Of a stretch of DNA of 23,992 bases, positions 6,432-23,992 are shown one piece after another. Location of the stretch: positions 1 to 23,992 of the IMG/VR virus record IMGVR_UViG_3300025128_000332; one strand, given 5' to 3'. Position 1 is the stretch's first letter. The number at the start of each line of letters is the position of its first letter. This DNA is from a virus. The translations under genes and the position numbers were made by a program. The notes below the pieces were generated by a model. The model had not been told where the DNA came from and did no database searches. It saw only the letters and a program-made list of their open reading frames with translations.

Positions 6432-8097
6432 GTTTCTCCCTAACATTACTAACCATATCGTCCACTCTACCCTTATTCCACAAATAATTCAAATAACATG
6501 CTGCTTTATACTTTGTCCAAGAGAAATCAAAACCTGATACTACAACACCACTACGTCCTAACATCTCTCTTTGCTTGTCACTCATTCTTTCATTCAACCA
6601 TCTACGACCTTTCTCAGCACTGTTACCATCTTCAATCTCTCTAAGAAAGTCATCAGCAGACGCAATAGCTTGTTTTCTTGTGCCAATACTAATCATTCTA
6701 ATCTTGCCACCAGAACGCTTTATAAGACCACATGACAAATCACCTACATCTATGACCATTGCAAAACCATTGAACCCTGTCGCTGCGACACATTTACCCG
6801 TACCAAATATATCCAACCAACGAAAAGGAGATCTATCAATGAGGTCAATCTCTGTCATGGTAAATTCTTCTAATTGTGAATTATCATTCTTTCCAAATTC
6901 AAAACCACACATAGGACATTCTCTAACACCTAAAGGCACTACTGAATTACACTCTGGACAAACCTTCTCAGGTGCATCACCTTGTAACTCTGACTGCGAA
7001 CCCTCTAAGTTTACTTCTTCTTCAAGTGAGCCATGCGTTAAAACAGATGTACCAAAGTCAAGAACAACACAATCTGTCTTGACAATATCTGGATACTCAT
7101 TCTGGTCTATGGTTCGCAAACCACGACCAATCATCTGAACCATTGTTGATTTATAAGAACAAGGACGGGTTAGAACAATACAGGATACAGGAGGTGAGTC
7201 AAACCCCTCTGTTAATACAGATACGTTGACTACGACCTGTGTATCCCCACTCGACAAATCCTCCAAAATCTCTCTTCTCTCAGTTTTGTCTGTGTTCCCT
7301 GTAACTATCTTTGCATTGATACCTTCTTCTACAAATTCCTGACATAAATCTTCTGCATGTGCGACTGTAGAACAAAACACTACAGTCTTTCTATCATTGG
7401 CTTTATCTAACCATTCGCTTACAACTCTTTGATTGATAGCTCGCTTGTTCATAATACGAGCTACTTGATCCATATCGAAATCAACCACTGTTTTCCGAAC
7501 ATTCTCAAGTTCAGAACGTACACCCACGTCAATGACGTAGGTTTTTGGGGAGACAAGAAAACCCTCACGAATAAGGGTTGATATTTCAATCTGATGTGAG
7601 CAATTGGTAAAGACTTCACGCAAACCTTTCTTATCCCCACGATTAGGCGTAGCAGTGAACCCAACAATTTCAACCTTGTCATTAATTTGTTTAGCATGAT
7701 TAATTATCCGAGTGTAAGTGTCGGCTACCACATGGTGGCTTTCATCAACAACCAACATGTCCATAGCTTTCATGTTATCTAAATTGTTCGGTCTGGATAA
7801 TGTCTGCACCATAGAAAATACAGTATCTCCATTCCAATCTTTTTCTTCAGCGTTAACAATGCTGGTCAATATATTGGGGTTTATGCGTTTAAACTTATCC
7901 ATATTTTGATTAACCAGCTCATCTCTGTGCTGCAGAACCAGAACATTTCTTCGGGTTTGACAGCGTTTGCCTATCAAAGCAGAAAGCATTATTGTTTTGC
8001 CTGCACCCGTTGGTGCAACAACAACAGTATTGCCATGCTTATCCAAAGCATCTATAGCCGAATTAACAGCAATCTCTTGATATGGTCTTAAAAGCAT
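6418..8097 (-). CDS. SF2 DEAD/DEAH-box helicase with C-terminal zinc ribbon
   Basis: This 559-aa helicase has all main superfamily 2 motifs: L-R-P-Y-Q near the start, Walker A A-P-T-G-A-G-K-T (28-35), motif II D-E-S-H-H (118-122), motif III T-A-T-P (148-151), and a second RecA domain with Q-M-I-G-R-G-L-R (motif VI, arginine finger) in the 320s. A C-P-E-C...C-P-M-C zinc ribbon follows at about 380-400. It resembles phage UvsW/RecG-like or type III restriction-like helicases, which remodel forks and recombination intermediates. A near-perfect AAAGGAGG ribosome site precedes ATG 8097. It is the first gene of its segment, downstream of the pentamer array at 8126-8859, so the array may lie in its mRNA leader if transcription starts far upstream. 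Confidence 0.88.
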   Translation of the reverse strand: MLLRPYQEIAVNSAIDALDKHGNTVVVAPTGAGKTIMLSALIGKRCQTRRNVLVLQHRDELVNQNMDKFKRINPNILTSIVNAEEKDWNGDTVFSMVQTLSRPNNLDNMKAMDMLVVDESHHVVADTYTRIINHAKQINDKVEIVGFTATPNRGDKKGLREVFTNCSHQIEISTLIREGFLVSPKTYVIDVGVRSELENVRKTVVDFDMDQVARIMNKRAINQRVVSEWLDKANDRKTVVFCSTVAHAEDLCQEFVEEGINAKIVTGNTDKTERREILEDLSSGDTQVVVNVSVLTEGFDSPPVSCIVLTRPCSYKSTMVQMIGRGLRTIDQNEYPDIVKTDCVVLDFGTSVLTHGSLEEEVNLEGSQSELQGDAPEKVCPECNSVVPLGVRECPMCGFEFGKNDNSQLEEFTMTEIDLIDRSPFRWLDIFGTGKCVAATGFNGFAMVIDVGDLSCGLIKRSGGKIRMISIGTRKQAIASADDFLREIEDGNSAEKGRRWLNERMSDKQREMLGRSGVVVSGFDFSWTKYKAACYLNYLWNKGRVDDMVSNVREKHEKR

Positions 8098-8125
8098 AAT
8101 GCCTCCTTTCTTTTAATTAAATTAC

Positions 8126-8859
8126 TCAACAGCCACAACGCAACTCAACTGAACCTAACTCAGCCAACCTCAACTGCCTAAACATAACTAACAGCACCTC
8201 TCCCCAAGATAACAGAACTCAACTGCCTTAACCGAACCTACCTCACCCAAGCATAGATGACCCAAACACAACTGCCGTAACACAACATAACGCACCTCGC
8301 CTGAAACCAACGCACCTAAAATCGCCTGAACATAACTCAACAGCCTGAACTTATCGCACCCCTACATAGAATATCGCACCTCACCCCAACTGCCTAAACC
8401 GACCATAACGGATCCAGCCGCACCCCTAAATATCTCAGCCAACCTCAACTCACCTACAACTGCCACAACGCAACGCAACTGACCTGAATGTAACTCACCT
8501 CACCCAACAATAACTGCCATACCGAAACGCAAAGTAACTCAACGCAACTCTCCTCACCTCAACAATAACTGCCTAAACGTAATGAAACGCAACGCAACGC
8601 AACTGACCTGAACGCACCTCGACTGCCTAAACGGATCGCACCACAACGCACCCCTCCCAACCACAGACTAACAAAACTCAACTGCCTCAACTGATCCTAA
8701 CTGACCCAAGAAAACCCAACCCCAACTGAACTGCCGTAACTTAACATATACCAACGCAACATAATCCTAACTGACCTGTCCCCTCCTCAACACGACACAA
8801 CAGCCAATCCTCAACGCAACGCATCTTAACGGACCTCTCCAAACCCCAAGAGGACTGCC
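8126..8859 (-). repeat. Degenerate pentamer array with tetramer separators
   Basis: This non-coding stretch of more than 700 nt is C/A-rich and G-poor on the plus strand. Read in a fixed phase it is a chain of pentamers N-N-A-(A/C)-C; on the minus strand G-(T/G)-T-N-N. By hand count 104 of 134 pentamers have A at position 3 and C at position 5. The phase is reset by a tetramer, TGCC (AGCC twice between blocks), giving 13 blocks with 8, 9, 9, 13, 9, 13, 10, 10, 10, 11, 9, 13 and 10 pentamers. Starts of the AACTGCC-like heptamers are 8128, 8172, 8221, 8270, 8339, 8388, 8458, 8512, 8567, 8621, 8680, 8729, 8799 and 8853. Their spacing is 5n+4, with a one-base excess in only three blocks. The first pentamer after a separator is often TAAAC. 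Stop codons fall in all frames. The function is unknown; origin, primase-site or protein-wrapping array are options. Confidence 0.85.
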
Positions 8860-8860
8860 T

Positions 8861-8887
8861 AAAAAAGTGAGGCTTATATAACCTCAC
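8861..8887 (-). terminator. Intrinsic terminator overlapping the stop of the 178-aa gene
   Basis: On the minus strand GTGAGG (8882-8887) pairs with CCTCAC (8867-8872) around a nine-base A/T-rich loop, followed at once by six T (8861-8866). This is a textbook Rho-independent terminator. It includes the stop codon of the gene at 8874-9410 and ends directly at the edge of the pentamer array, so most transcription from the upstream operon should stop before the array. There is no T-tract on the plus-strand side. Confidence 0.75.
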
Positions 8888-9410
8888 TCTCCACACTATG
8901 TTCTTCCAAAGAATTTGCTACTTCTTCAAGGTTCTCTATATCTACTTCTTTTACAGCACAGATACCTTTATATCTTTTAGTCCAAGATCTTAATTCTCTA
9001 CAGGCTTGACGACATAACTCAGCAACAATTTCAGGATTATCCAAGTCAAACTTTTGATAACCACCACCCTGTGCTCTACCATCTATAGGAGAGATATAAG
9101 TAGGAAACTTTAACACCTTTGGCTCACTAATACCAATACTATCTGTTACATCAACAGTATCAGGTGTTACATCTTTATATTTAATGGTTATTCTACAACC
9201 TGAGAAAAACTGACGAATTTGCTGTATTCTATATTTAATTGCAGCTTTTTCATCATCCCACTCTAATACTTTATACATTGGGTGGTCAGGCTGTGTAGAC
9301 AACCATTCGTGAAACTCGGCAGGAACAATAGTGTTCCTGCCTGTCTTATTTAAATAATCATCAACAATTGCTTGACGATCTCTTTTGCCAAATCTTTTAG
9401 GTTTAGCCAT
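8874..9410 (-). CDS. Conserved-looking phage protein of unknown function
   Basis: This 178-aa protein is basic at the N terminus (K-P-K-R-F-G-K-R-D-R) and acidic at the C terminus (E-N-L-E-E-V-A-N-S-L-E-E-H). I recognise no domain. It is the last gene of the operon segment that runs from 10192 and ends in an intrinsic terminator that uses its stop codon. Its start is coupled to the 260-aa gene by TAATG, so the two are probably made in similar amounts and may act together. The neighbouring genes suggest a role in DNA replication or recombination. Confidence 0.65.
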   Translation of the reverse strand: MAKPKRFGKRDRQAIVDDYLNKTGRNTIVPAEFHEWLSTQPDHPMYKVLEWDDEKAAIKYRIQQIRQFFSGCRITIKYKDVTPDTVDVTDSIGISEPKVLKFPTYISPIDGRAQGGGYQKFDLDNPEIVAELCRQACRELRSWTKRYKGICAVKEVDIENLEEVANSLEEHSVESEVI

Positions 9411-10192
9411 TAAGCAACTTCCTTAATAATAGCCGCTCTTTTAAGCCTCTCTTGCGTAATTGCTTCATAGAGTTCGTGGCTCATATTATCATGTGCCTCA
9501 ATCTCAGGATTTTCTAAAGCAAGTTTTTGACAAGTAGCACCCTCTTCTTTGACTAGACGATCAAAAATCTTTTGATCATCTTTTGTTTGGACGATCCTAT
9601 ATCCTCCCATTGGACCACCCTTTTCAATTCGCCAATCACCCAAGCCACATAACGTACCTGCATTAACGAGCAATGCCGTAATGTCAAGCTGACTAAATGT
9701 AGGGTTAATATAACGAACTGTAACTTCAGTACACCAATTAGGTAATTTAGCACGGGTGCGAATATCAGGTGTTCTGTTTATATCAGAAGAACGAACAACA
9801 GACATATTCATATAGGGTTTACCCCATACATTAATATGTTCACCCACAACGTATATACCACGATTGATACTAGCTTTTGTTACACCAGCAGTTTCAAGAG
9901 CCGCAGTTGCCATGCCTCTCTTAATACCTGTGGACGGGAAACTAAGATAAGAACCATTAGTACCATTGATATAACAACTATCTACAAACTCCTCTTCAGG
10001 ATTATGTTTGATCTCTTTTTTCTCAGCGGCAGTCTTCTTCGCTGCACCCATAAGCAAAGTCTTTTGTGCTTTCAAAGACATTGAATTATAAATTAAAGGT
10101 GCAGTACCTATAATTTTAAAAGACACTTCTGTCTGTTGTAATGGATCAATACTTAATCCCATTTCTTTAACTGTAGTTTTTTTAGCAACCAT
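9410..10192 (-). CDS. Conserved-looking phage protein of unknown function
   Basis: This 260-aa protein is not recognised with confidence. Its features are a short lysine-rich N terminus, a central S-T-G-I-K-R-G-M-A-T-A-A segment (near residue 85) and a glycine-rich motif L-G-D-W-R-I-E-K-G-G-P-M-G (near 190) that looks conserved and could bind nucleotide or nucleic acid. An excellent ribosome site, AAAGGAGGT, precedes ATG 10192, so it is well expressed as the first gene of a two-gene segment. A possible weak terminator or hairpin lies upstream (10228-10267). Confidence 0.7.
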   Translation of the reverse strand: MVAKKTTVKEMGLSIDPLQQTEVSFKIIGTAPLIYNSMSLKAQKTLLMGAAKKTAAEKKEIKHNPEEEFVDSCYINGTNGSYLSFPSTGIKRGMATAALETAGVTKASINRGIYVVGEHINVWGKPYMNMSVVRSSDINRTPDIRTRAKLPNWCTEVTVRYINPTFSQLDITALLVNAGTLCGLGDWRIEKGGPMGGYRIVQTKDDQKIFDRLVKEEGATCQKLALENPEIEAHDNMSHELYEAITQERLKRAAIIKEVA

Positions 10193-10295: not shown

Positions 10296-10523
10296 TCAAA
10301 ACTTTGCGTTTTTCACCAAAGATTTTAAAAACTGCACTTTTGATACGGAAAATCCTACACTATCTTCAAACGCAGTTTTCTTATTTAAGAACTCTTCATT
10401 CTCTTCATCACTAAAAGTAATGTTTACAGAATGAGGTGTTCTTTGTTTTTTTCTCAACGATTGTCTTCTTGCATATTCTTTTGCAGACAAATCAGGACTA
10501 AGCTCAATATTATTATCTTCCAT
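10296..10523 (-). CDS. Small protein with a ribbon-helix-helix-like segment
   Basis: This 75-aa protein starts M-E-D-N-N at ATG 10523, chosen because it shares a TAATG junction with the stop of the ssDNA-binding protein gene. A TTG 12 nt upstream is less likely. The N-terminal half is highly basic (A-R-R-Q-S-L-R-K-K-Q-R). A beta-like S-V-N-I-T-F-S is then followed by two helices, the order seen in ribbon-helix-helix proteins. DNA binding is plausible but not shown. The neighbours suggest a role in recombination or its regulation. Confidence 0.6.
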   Translation of the reverse strand: MEDNNIELSPDLSAKEYARRQSLRKKQRTPHSVNITFSDEENEEFLNKKTAFEDSVGFSVSKVQFLKSLVKNAKF

Positions 10524-11119
10524 TATTTCGCCCAATCTGGCACATTGCCGTTCTGATTTTGTTGAGGTTGTGGAGTACTAGCTGGTGCAAAATTAGTTGC
10601 ACTAATATATCCTGCATTATTAGGAGTTAATGGTGCAATCAATCTATTACGATCTGCATATCCATTTGTTCCTTTTTCAATACCAATTTTAACACATAGC
10701 TCCATATTGTTTAAATCCTCAATGCTATTGAGTTGTCTAGCTTGTTGTGCATTTGGTGTTGTATCATCAGGATTGATGTTACGAGCACTCTCTATAATAG
10801 AACGCATAGTTCTTAAACCAATCTCTTTGGCGACAGGAACATTACGTTCACTCATTTTATCACCATCGACAAAAATTCTATGCCAAACTTTACGTCCATT
10901 ATAATCACCACCCTTGATGGTAAATACGACAGGCATCCACTTAGCCCTACCACCACCTTGTGATGCTTTGAAAAAGTTACCTCTACCAAATTCAGGGATT
11001 TCTAAACTCCCACCCTCTAGTTGCAAAGTAACTCTTGCAATAGTATTTTCTGGAATAAGTTCAAACTCTCCAGATGAACCACTACTAGGTTCTATATCAT
11101 TAAAATTTATAGACATCAT
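10523..11119 (-). CDS. DUF669-like single-stranded DNA-binding protein
   Basis: This 198-aa protein resembles the DUF669 group of phage proteins that work as single-strand DNA-binding partners of Sak4-type recombinases. The N-terminal two thirds form an OB-fold-like beta region with G-D-Y-N-G-R-K-V-W-H-R-I-F. The tail from about residue 170 is a flexible P/Q/N-rich linker that ends in P-D-W-A-K, reminiscent of SSB partner-binding tails but without the classical D-D-D-I-P-F end. It overlaps the Sak4-like ATPase gene by ATGA, a pairing that supports the call. The start is at the first of two adjacent ATG codons. Confidence 0.72.
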   Translation of the reverse strand: MMSINFNDIEPSSGSSGEFELIPENTIARVTLQLEGGSLEIPEFGRGNFFKASQGGGRAKWMPVVFTIKGGDYNGRKVWHRIFVDGDKMSERNVPVAKEIGLRTMRSIIESARNINPDDTTPNAQQARQLNSIEDLNNMELCVKIGIEKGTNGYADRNRLIAPLTPNNAGYISATNFAPASTPQPQQNQNGNVPDWAK

Positions 11120-23394: not shown

Positions 23395-23992
23395 AATTAC
23401 ACTCCTGCTTATGGTCGTCTAATTCTTTCTTTAAATCTTTTATTGCTTCAATAAGAACGCCAACTATATTTCCATATGCAACAGACTTATATTCACCATC
23501 TGTTACAACTTCTGGTAAAACTTTTTCTACTTCTTGAGCAATTACACCAATACCTTTTTCAGCTTGTTTTGTATAAGATACCCCACGCATATTCATAACT
23601 TTATATAAAGCGTCATCTATCGTTTCTATATCTGACTTTAATCTCTCATCTGAAAAAGCTGTAATATCACCACTAGCAGTTATCGTACCAGTGTTGGCTA
23701 TGTTTCTAAAACCAGTAATATCTTTGTTACTGTCAACGATTACTGCTTTTGATGCAGCTACAGTTCCTGCTGTTATACCATCAACTAAATTTAATTCAGC
23801 CGCAGTTGAAGTAACTCCATCTAAAATGTTTAATTCAGCTGCTGTGGATGTAACTCCATCTAAAATATTTAACTCAGCCGCTGTGGATGTAACTCCGTCT
23901 AAAATATTTAACTCTGCCGTTGTGACTGTCGCACCATCAAGTATTTCAAGTTCTGCTTCTGTAATAGTAGCACTTCCTATAGTAAAACTTGT
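23378..23992 (-). CDS. Tail fibre C-terminal part with S74 endosialidase-type chaperone, cut by the window edge
   Basis: The frame stays open to the right edge, so only the last 204 residues are seen. The N-terminal visible part has five E-L-x-I-L-D-G-like repeats of 13 residues. A linker follows (A-S-K-A-V-I-V-D-S-N-K-D-I), then the start of a peptidase S74 domain, S-D-E-R-L-K-S-D-I, with G-V-I-A-Q-E-V-E-K-V-L-P-E-V-V further on. The S74 domain is an intramolecular chaperone that helps trimeric fibres fold and then cleaves itself off, usually at the Ser of S-D-E-R-x-K. The last helix ends in a cysteine-rich tail (C-N-C-G). An internal ATG at 23596 could be mistaken for the start, but the reading frame clearly continues upstream. 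Confidence 0.88.
   Translation of the reverse strand, partial: TSFTIGSATITEAELEILDGATVTTAELNILDGVTSTAAELNILDGVTSTAAELNILDGVTSTAAELNLVDGITAGTVAASKAVIVDSNKDITGFRNIANTGTITASGDITAFSDERLKSDIETIDDALYKVMNMRGVSYTKQAEKGIGVIAQEVEKVLPEVVTDGEYKSVAYGNIVGVLIEAIKDLKKELDDHKQECNCGSSE
23777..23953 (-). repeat. Tandem 39-nt repeats in the fibre gene
   Basis: Five in-frame copies of a 39-nt unit code for 13-residue repeats with the core A-E-L-N-I-L-D-G-V-T-S-T-A. The middle copies are nearly identical; the outer ones have diverged (E-L-E-I-L-D-G at one end, E-L-N-L-V-D-G at the other). This is the usual shaft repeat of trimeric fibres with an S74 chaperone. Copy number may vary by recombination, changing shaft length. 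Confidence 0.8.

Follow-up and report, generated by a model that had tools for sequence, protein, structure and literature searches.

Within a marine viral DNA stretch of 23,992 nucleotides (IMG/VR record IMGVR_UViG_3300025128_000332; hereafter the window), we identified a minus-strand vrRNA array (8121..8859) that, judged from its sequence, is likely a phage VIPR guide array directed, as far as its guides can be read, at genes of bacterial restriction and defence, which it would silence. Direct support comes from the homology and fold of the adjacent Vipr protein, the linkage between array and vipr gene, the structure of the guides, and the control-tested matches between three guides and defence genes.

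The initial annotation of this region stated that nothing known matches its layout, which no longer holds, as a preprint of 2026 describes VIPR (PMC13142463). According to its main text, Vipr is an ancestral RAMP that uses vrRNAs with GGY/NN repeats (PMC13142463; bioRxiv 2026.04.26.720920), in which each guide comprises 9–16 repeats of a conserved triplet and a hypervariable NN pair, and the NN pairs read DNA with a one-base skip, mostly at codon wobble positions (PMC13142463). In type II VIPR the repeats are followed by a structured 3' tail that does not vary, and staggered overlapping arrays are given only in the supplement, so that the array form found in the window may already be listed there (PMC13142463). 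The main text presents VIPR mainly as a weapon between phages; the natural targets named there are satellites, prophages and other VIPR loci, and defence genes are not mentioned as targets (PMC13142463).

Layout and Conservation of the Array

Autocorrelation of positions 8126–8859 peaked at lag 5 (z 8.7 relative to dinucleotide-shuffled sequence), with further peaks at lags 10, 15 and 20 and a second series at 44, 49, 54 and 59 (5n+4), establishing that the period-5 array is real. The minus strand, which is also the coding strand of the adjoining genes, was parsed with a hidden Markov model (Viterbi). This yielded 136 G-K-T-NN pentamers in 13 full blocks of 8–13 units plus a two-unit remnant (8121–8134, minus strand), 14 GGC[A/T] tetramers (TGCC/AGCC in plus-strand letters), and insertions of a single base at exactly three places. 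The 13 blocks, the 5n+4 spacing and the three insertions reported from the letters alone are thereby confirmed, and the count of about 134 pentamers at 8126–8859 is refined to 136 at 8121–8859.

On the minus strand, G occupies position 1 in 121 of the 136 pentamers and T occupies position 3 in 120, while positions 4 and 5 are free. Position 2, in the middle of the triplet, is less constrained (T 78, G 42, A 9, C 7). The earlier proposal that something reads a triplet every five bases agrees with the VIPR RNAs, but the pattern lies on the strand complementary to the one described, and the triplet is not uniformly fixed. Likewise, the contrast between a fixed triplet and a variable pair stands within one array and fails between orthologous blocks of related phages. 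There the NN pairs and the triplet are conserved to much the same degree (fractions substituted: 0.088 and 0.049 for NN; 0.079, 0.119 and 0.037 for the triplet), the second NN base (codon position 2) more so than the first. We therefore conclude from this conservation that the dinucleotides are under selection and are not mere spacers; the suggestion that they may carry information is also in line with VIPR.

Folding of the array RNA was no better than that of shuffles. A TRAP-like or structured RNA was rejected, as there was neither structure beyond shuffles nor an Rfam match. The parse of the array contains no structured tail between cassettes of the kind found in type II, which counts against type II and not against VIPR as a whole. 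The repeat-spacer layout of class 1 CRISPR-Cas is also absent from the parse.

The Vipr Protein and Neighboring Genes

The gene at 9410..10192 (minus strand) encodes a 260-aa RAMP/Cas7-like protein (phrog_4652), which we assign as Vipr by profile and fold. Its family profile matches PDB entry 36pp_D, 'SUSP1 Vipr protein', with an E-value of 1.6e-30 (0.0018 for the single sequence), and Csm5 with an E-value of 0.0075. An AlphaFold2 model (pLDDT 86) matched Csm and type VII Cas7-like subunits in Foldseek, indicating a Cas7 fold. This fold, the match to 36pp and the linkage of array and Vipr described below together identify the window locus as a VIPR system.

Between array and vipr lies the gene of a conserved 178-aa partner (8874..9410, minus strand), a candidate Vipr-accessory protein (vap) that is present in 83 of 114 vipr loci in two gene orders and for which no fold match was obtained. 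A strong hairpin followed by a T run, resembling a terminator (approximately 8860..8890, minus strand; z -3.6), separates this gene from the array. Comparison of ten window proteins with Pfam and ten with PHROGs gave a stand-alone Cas4-domain exonuclease as the sole Cas-related match. At 10296–10535 (minus strand), the C-terminal half of a 79-aa frame resembles a ribbon-helix-helix DNA-binding protein by eye, with weak PHROG hits only. Elsewhere in the window (23789–23924), 3.5 copies of a 39-bp repeat encode AELNILDGVT units of a tail-fibre-like protein.

Linkage of Array and Vipr in Related Phages

We searched IMG/VR for homologues of the helicase that adjoins the array and of the 260-aa protein. 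Arrays of the same design adjoin the 260-aa gene in nearly all relatives, down to approximately 48% identity, whereas distant helicase relatives (<70% identity) lack arrays. The tie to the helicase that had been proposed earlier is thus secondary: it is the vipr gene that is the conserved partner. A blind scan of viral contigs for six GTTNN units recovered loci with long period-5 arrays, about a dozen of which have a remote homologue of the 260-aa protein nearby, as found with the family HMM; with these loci included, viral loci number about 100, and in most of them a homologue adjoins an array of this kind. Array and vipr therefore form a linked pair across very diverse phages. A distant DNA search found no relatives of positions 7000–10000 among known phages, and the Vipr homologues in known phages are remote only.

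Related phages draw on a common stock of cassettes: the subset differs between phages, the order is roughly kept, and whole cassettes have been gained or lost. The gene order is vipr-array-vap in 48 loci and vipr-vap-array in 32. In a clade at approximately 50% identity (L090–L093 and others) the array consensus is GKY and the junction tetramer is GGCG, not GGCA.

Several features of individual relatives were noted in passing. The arrays of two remote vipr relatives (L172:850–2480, minus strand, and L177:11250–13150) read AACNN/CACNN in the sense of vipr, and GTTNN/GTGNN on the other strand. In L172 the blocks alternate with copies of a minihelix-like element, GCGAGC...GGTTCGATTCC...GCTCGCC, which resembles the acceptor and T arm of a tRNA and received no call from ARAGORN or Rfam. 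L012 and L014 have an extra open frame between array and helicase with a YADPPW motif, by eye an MT-A70-like adenine methyltransferase.

Decoding of the Guides and Target Matches

The NN pairs of the window cassettes fit positions 1 and 2 of sense codons (+0.23 bits per pair; -0.13 with the bases swapped, -0.19 as reverse complement), and the decoded strings look like protein motifs. The names of these motifs were in part assigned ahead of testing. Alphaproteobacteria were chosen for the target search because the druA match described below occurs there.

Three guides gave exact or nearly exact matches in defence genes. C03 (8687..8735, minus strand as for all guides; 9 units) decodes to HGCFWH[SR]HD, a motif of the Vsr endonuclease. 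In the 190 alphaproteobacterial genomes, HGCFWH.HD had nine exact matches and its backward control none. All nine carry the Vsr motif, eight by reading frame and the one in L292 by the matched DNA, which encodes HGCFWHGHD; four were confirmed as Vsr by Pfam, and the window's own C03 guide is matched in L295 at 9/9 units. C12 (8179..8227; 9 units) reads DLIGEAYIY, a motif of HsdM of type I restriction-modification, and gave two exact matches in the same genomes, both HsdM, with a backward control of zero; the window form agrees with every hsdM match at 8/9 units, and C12 variants of other phages agree at all units. C04 (8628..8686; 11 units; DLSVCGAVAPY) had been predicted as DruA-like (Druantia), in the form [DE][FL][SR]V[CW]GAVAPY, before any genome scan. 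This pattern has a single match in 84,980 genomes, at 11/11 units and in frame, in druA of Parvularcula oceani (Pfam PF14236; PADLOC E 4e-165). As an exact match to it is expected about once by chance in that many genomes, what gives the match weight is that it extends to the eleventh unit, is in frame and was predicted beforehand.

For two further guides the sequence matches point to probable targets, a restriction helicase and GmrSD or DndB. C07 (8465..8518; 10 units; [IM]CDETHHAAV) found its best match, with one mismatch, in a gene for an SF2 restriction helicase (HNH-ResIII); the counterpart cassette of a distant phage group, absent from the search query, matches the same gene at 10/10 units. 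Matches of C07 at three mismatches are mostly chance, and only the one-mismatch match is informative. C02 (8736..8805; 13 units with one base inserted; VV[DE]G[HQ][HQ][SR]...), a probable GmrSD/DUF262 or DndB (DGQHR) motif, had 35 inexact matches, GmrSD and DndB genes among them, against four for the backward controls; its nine-unit pattern at one mismatch gave two matches, which is at chance level.

Two guides possibly read helicase motif II, as their decoded strings suggest. C05 (8574..8627; 10 units; [DE]AHHAAASTY), possibly directed at a restriction helicase, stood at chance level at two mismatches (four matches against three in the control), one match lying in a ResIII helicase. C06 (8519..8573; 10 units, one inserted base) is a possible DExD/H motif II, and its orthologue in L016 reads V[IM]DEAHHAS.

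The remaining six of the 13 guides are without an assigned target: C01 (8806..8859; 10 units; LG[FL][DE]P[NK]AA[DE][FL]), C08 (8395..8464; 13 units, one inserted base), C09 (8346..8394; 9 units; G[DE]A[IM][IM]GA[NK][HQ]), which is the cassette most widely common to relatives, C10 (8277..8345; 13 units), C11 (8228..8276; 9 units) and C13 (8135..8178; 8 units). Among these C08, C09 and C10 were searched; C09 gave four matches against three in the control, and C08 and C10 gave none. The exact C04 and C09 patterns had no match in viral contigs, and in 2.4 Mb of related loci no skip rule was enriched for targets within related phages.

No match runs on past a tetramer, and the tetramers therefore delimit guides. 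The sequence matches agree with target recognition by NN pairs with one nucleotide skipped.

Among cassettes of other loci, one present in L011 and L023 reads GGPPC[HQ]A[FL], which we take to be motif IV of C5-methyltransferases. Distant-clade cassettes (L099, L110, L113, L118, L122, L142) decode to a methyltransferase-like [NK]PP[CW] motif, V[FL]GPV.[NK]PP[CW][NK]T. The unrelated 194-kb viral contig L279 holds many in-frame copies of a sequence similar to decoded C12, which lie within the gene of a repeat protein read in a different frame; this likeness is a chance match in repetitive DNA.

Alternative Explanations

If VIPR acts here in the manner published, the guides would be weapons against competing phages, prophages or satellites, and the matched defence genes would be ones that those elements carry. 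We hold this to be possible, if on the whole unlikely. It is a serious rival because some HsdM matches, three in number, fall in viral contigs; the main text places natural targets in satellites and prophages (PMC13142463), and SF2 helicases are also phage genes, one of them present in the window. Against it, the Vsr and HsdM matches in the 190 genomes and the druA match are all in bacterial assemblies, and the structural and replication genes of related phages yielded no match.

It is improbable that the array is VIPR but that its defence-gene matches are a coincidence of strongly conserved motifs, the real targets lying elsewhere. Exact or nearly exact matches are limited to three guides, six guides lack a match, and some tests are at chance level; yet for each guide the exact matches are in frame and confined to one gene family, the backward controls stand at zero, and DruA was named ahead of the scan. 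Motif counts over all cassettes also far exceed those for shuffled unit order, although the variants of one cassette are not independent.

The position of the array, an intergenic site with strong GC skew that adjoins the helicase and replication module, would suit a replication origin, a partition site or protein-binding iterons upstream of the helicase. We consider this very improbable: across relatives the array tracks the vipr gene and not the helicase, the linkage to vipr holds in distant phages, and the NN pairs are conserved and codon-like. A helicase-linked origin or iteron in particular was rejected on account of the helicase relatives below 70% identity, which lack arrays. Least probable of all is a functionless, decaying simple pentamer repeat, which the short local repeats detected by Tandem Repeats Finder might suggest but which is refuted by the conservation of NN between orthologues across phages, the recurrence of the design beside vipr homologues in unrelated phages, and guides that match gene families with controls at zero.

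Proposed Function

We return to a VIPR array directed at defence genes, for which we infer transcription, processing, DNA binding and silencing. The minus strand would be transcribed into RNAs held by Cas7-like Vipr subunits, one to each G-K-T triplet, with GGC[A/T] tetramers marking the ends of 13 separate guides of 8–13 units. Each NN pair would read two target bases and skip the third; because the skipped base is the codon wobble position, a conserved protein motif could be read whatever the codon usage. The targets would be vsr, druA and hsdM, with restriction helicases and GmrSD/DndB as probable additions. Judging from the homologous type II VIPR, the Vipr complex would bind these genes and repress their transcription, and the outcome would be silenced defence genes in the host or in competing elements equipped with them. 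One point against this role is that repression cannot remove restriction enzymes made before phage entry.

More broadly, we think it reasonably likely that the VIPR arrays of marine phages form an RNA-guided anti-defence repertoire, with one immune gene family motif per guide and with cassettes gained, lost and exchanged. The families that we would, with similar confidence, place in this repertoire are Vsr, DruA, HsdM, restriction helicases, GmrSD/DndB and C5-methyltransferases.

If the decoding is true, phages aim VIPR at bacterial immunity too, and this would be a programmable, RNA-guided viral suppression of restriction and Druantia genes. A single guide could cover a whole gene family, because guides read amino-acid motifs independent of codon choice. 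Since a short script decodes the arrays, many environmental arrays could be read as an inventory of the defence genes of importance to phages, perhaps with defence families still unrecognised among them.

Comparison With Known Systems

The backbones of class 1 CRISPR-Cas (Cas7, Csm3, Csm5) share with the window system the Cas7/RAMP fold and the logic of a filament on a guide RNA with target bases skipped regularly. Unlike them, the window has no repeat-spacer array or CRISPR effector operon, its guide period is 5 where that of CRISPR is 6, and only the NN pairs are read. The Tas proteins of TIGR-Tas carry a Nop5 domain. The window protein, in contrast, is a RAMP, and its guide code differs from that of TIGR-Tas. 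The two resemble each other as phage-borne, DNA-targeting systems with tandem guide RNA arrays (PMC12045711).

The closest agreement is with VIPR itself: a RAMP-like Vipr, pentamers of a G-rich triplet and a variable NN pair, a wobble-aligned target code with a one-base skip, and a small phage-borne locus with the array beside vipr and a conserved neighbor gene. The differences lie in the consensus, G-K-T in the window and GGY as published, and in the array, which comprises 13 gapless, GGC[A/T]-punctuated guides with no structured tail seen. This long GKT/NN array is a variant form of the known VIPR system. The targets decoded in the window are restriction and defence genes, whereas those of the published main text are satellites, prophages and other VIPR loci; the new element is apparently this anti-defence use, which that main text does not report (PMC13142463).
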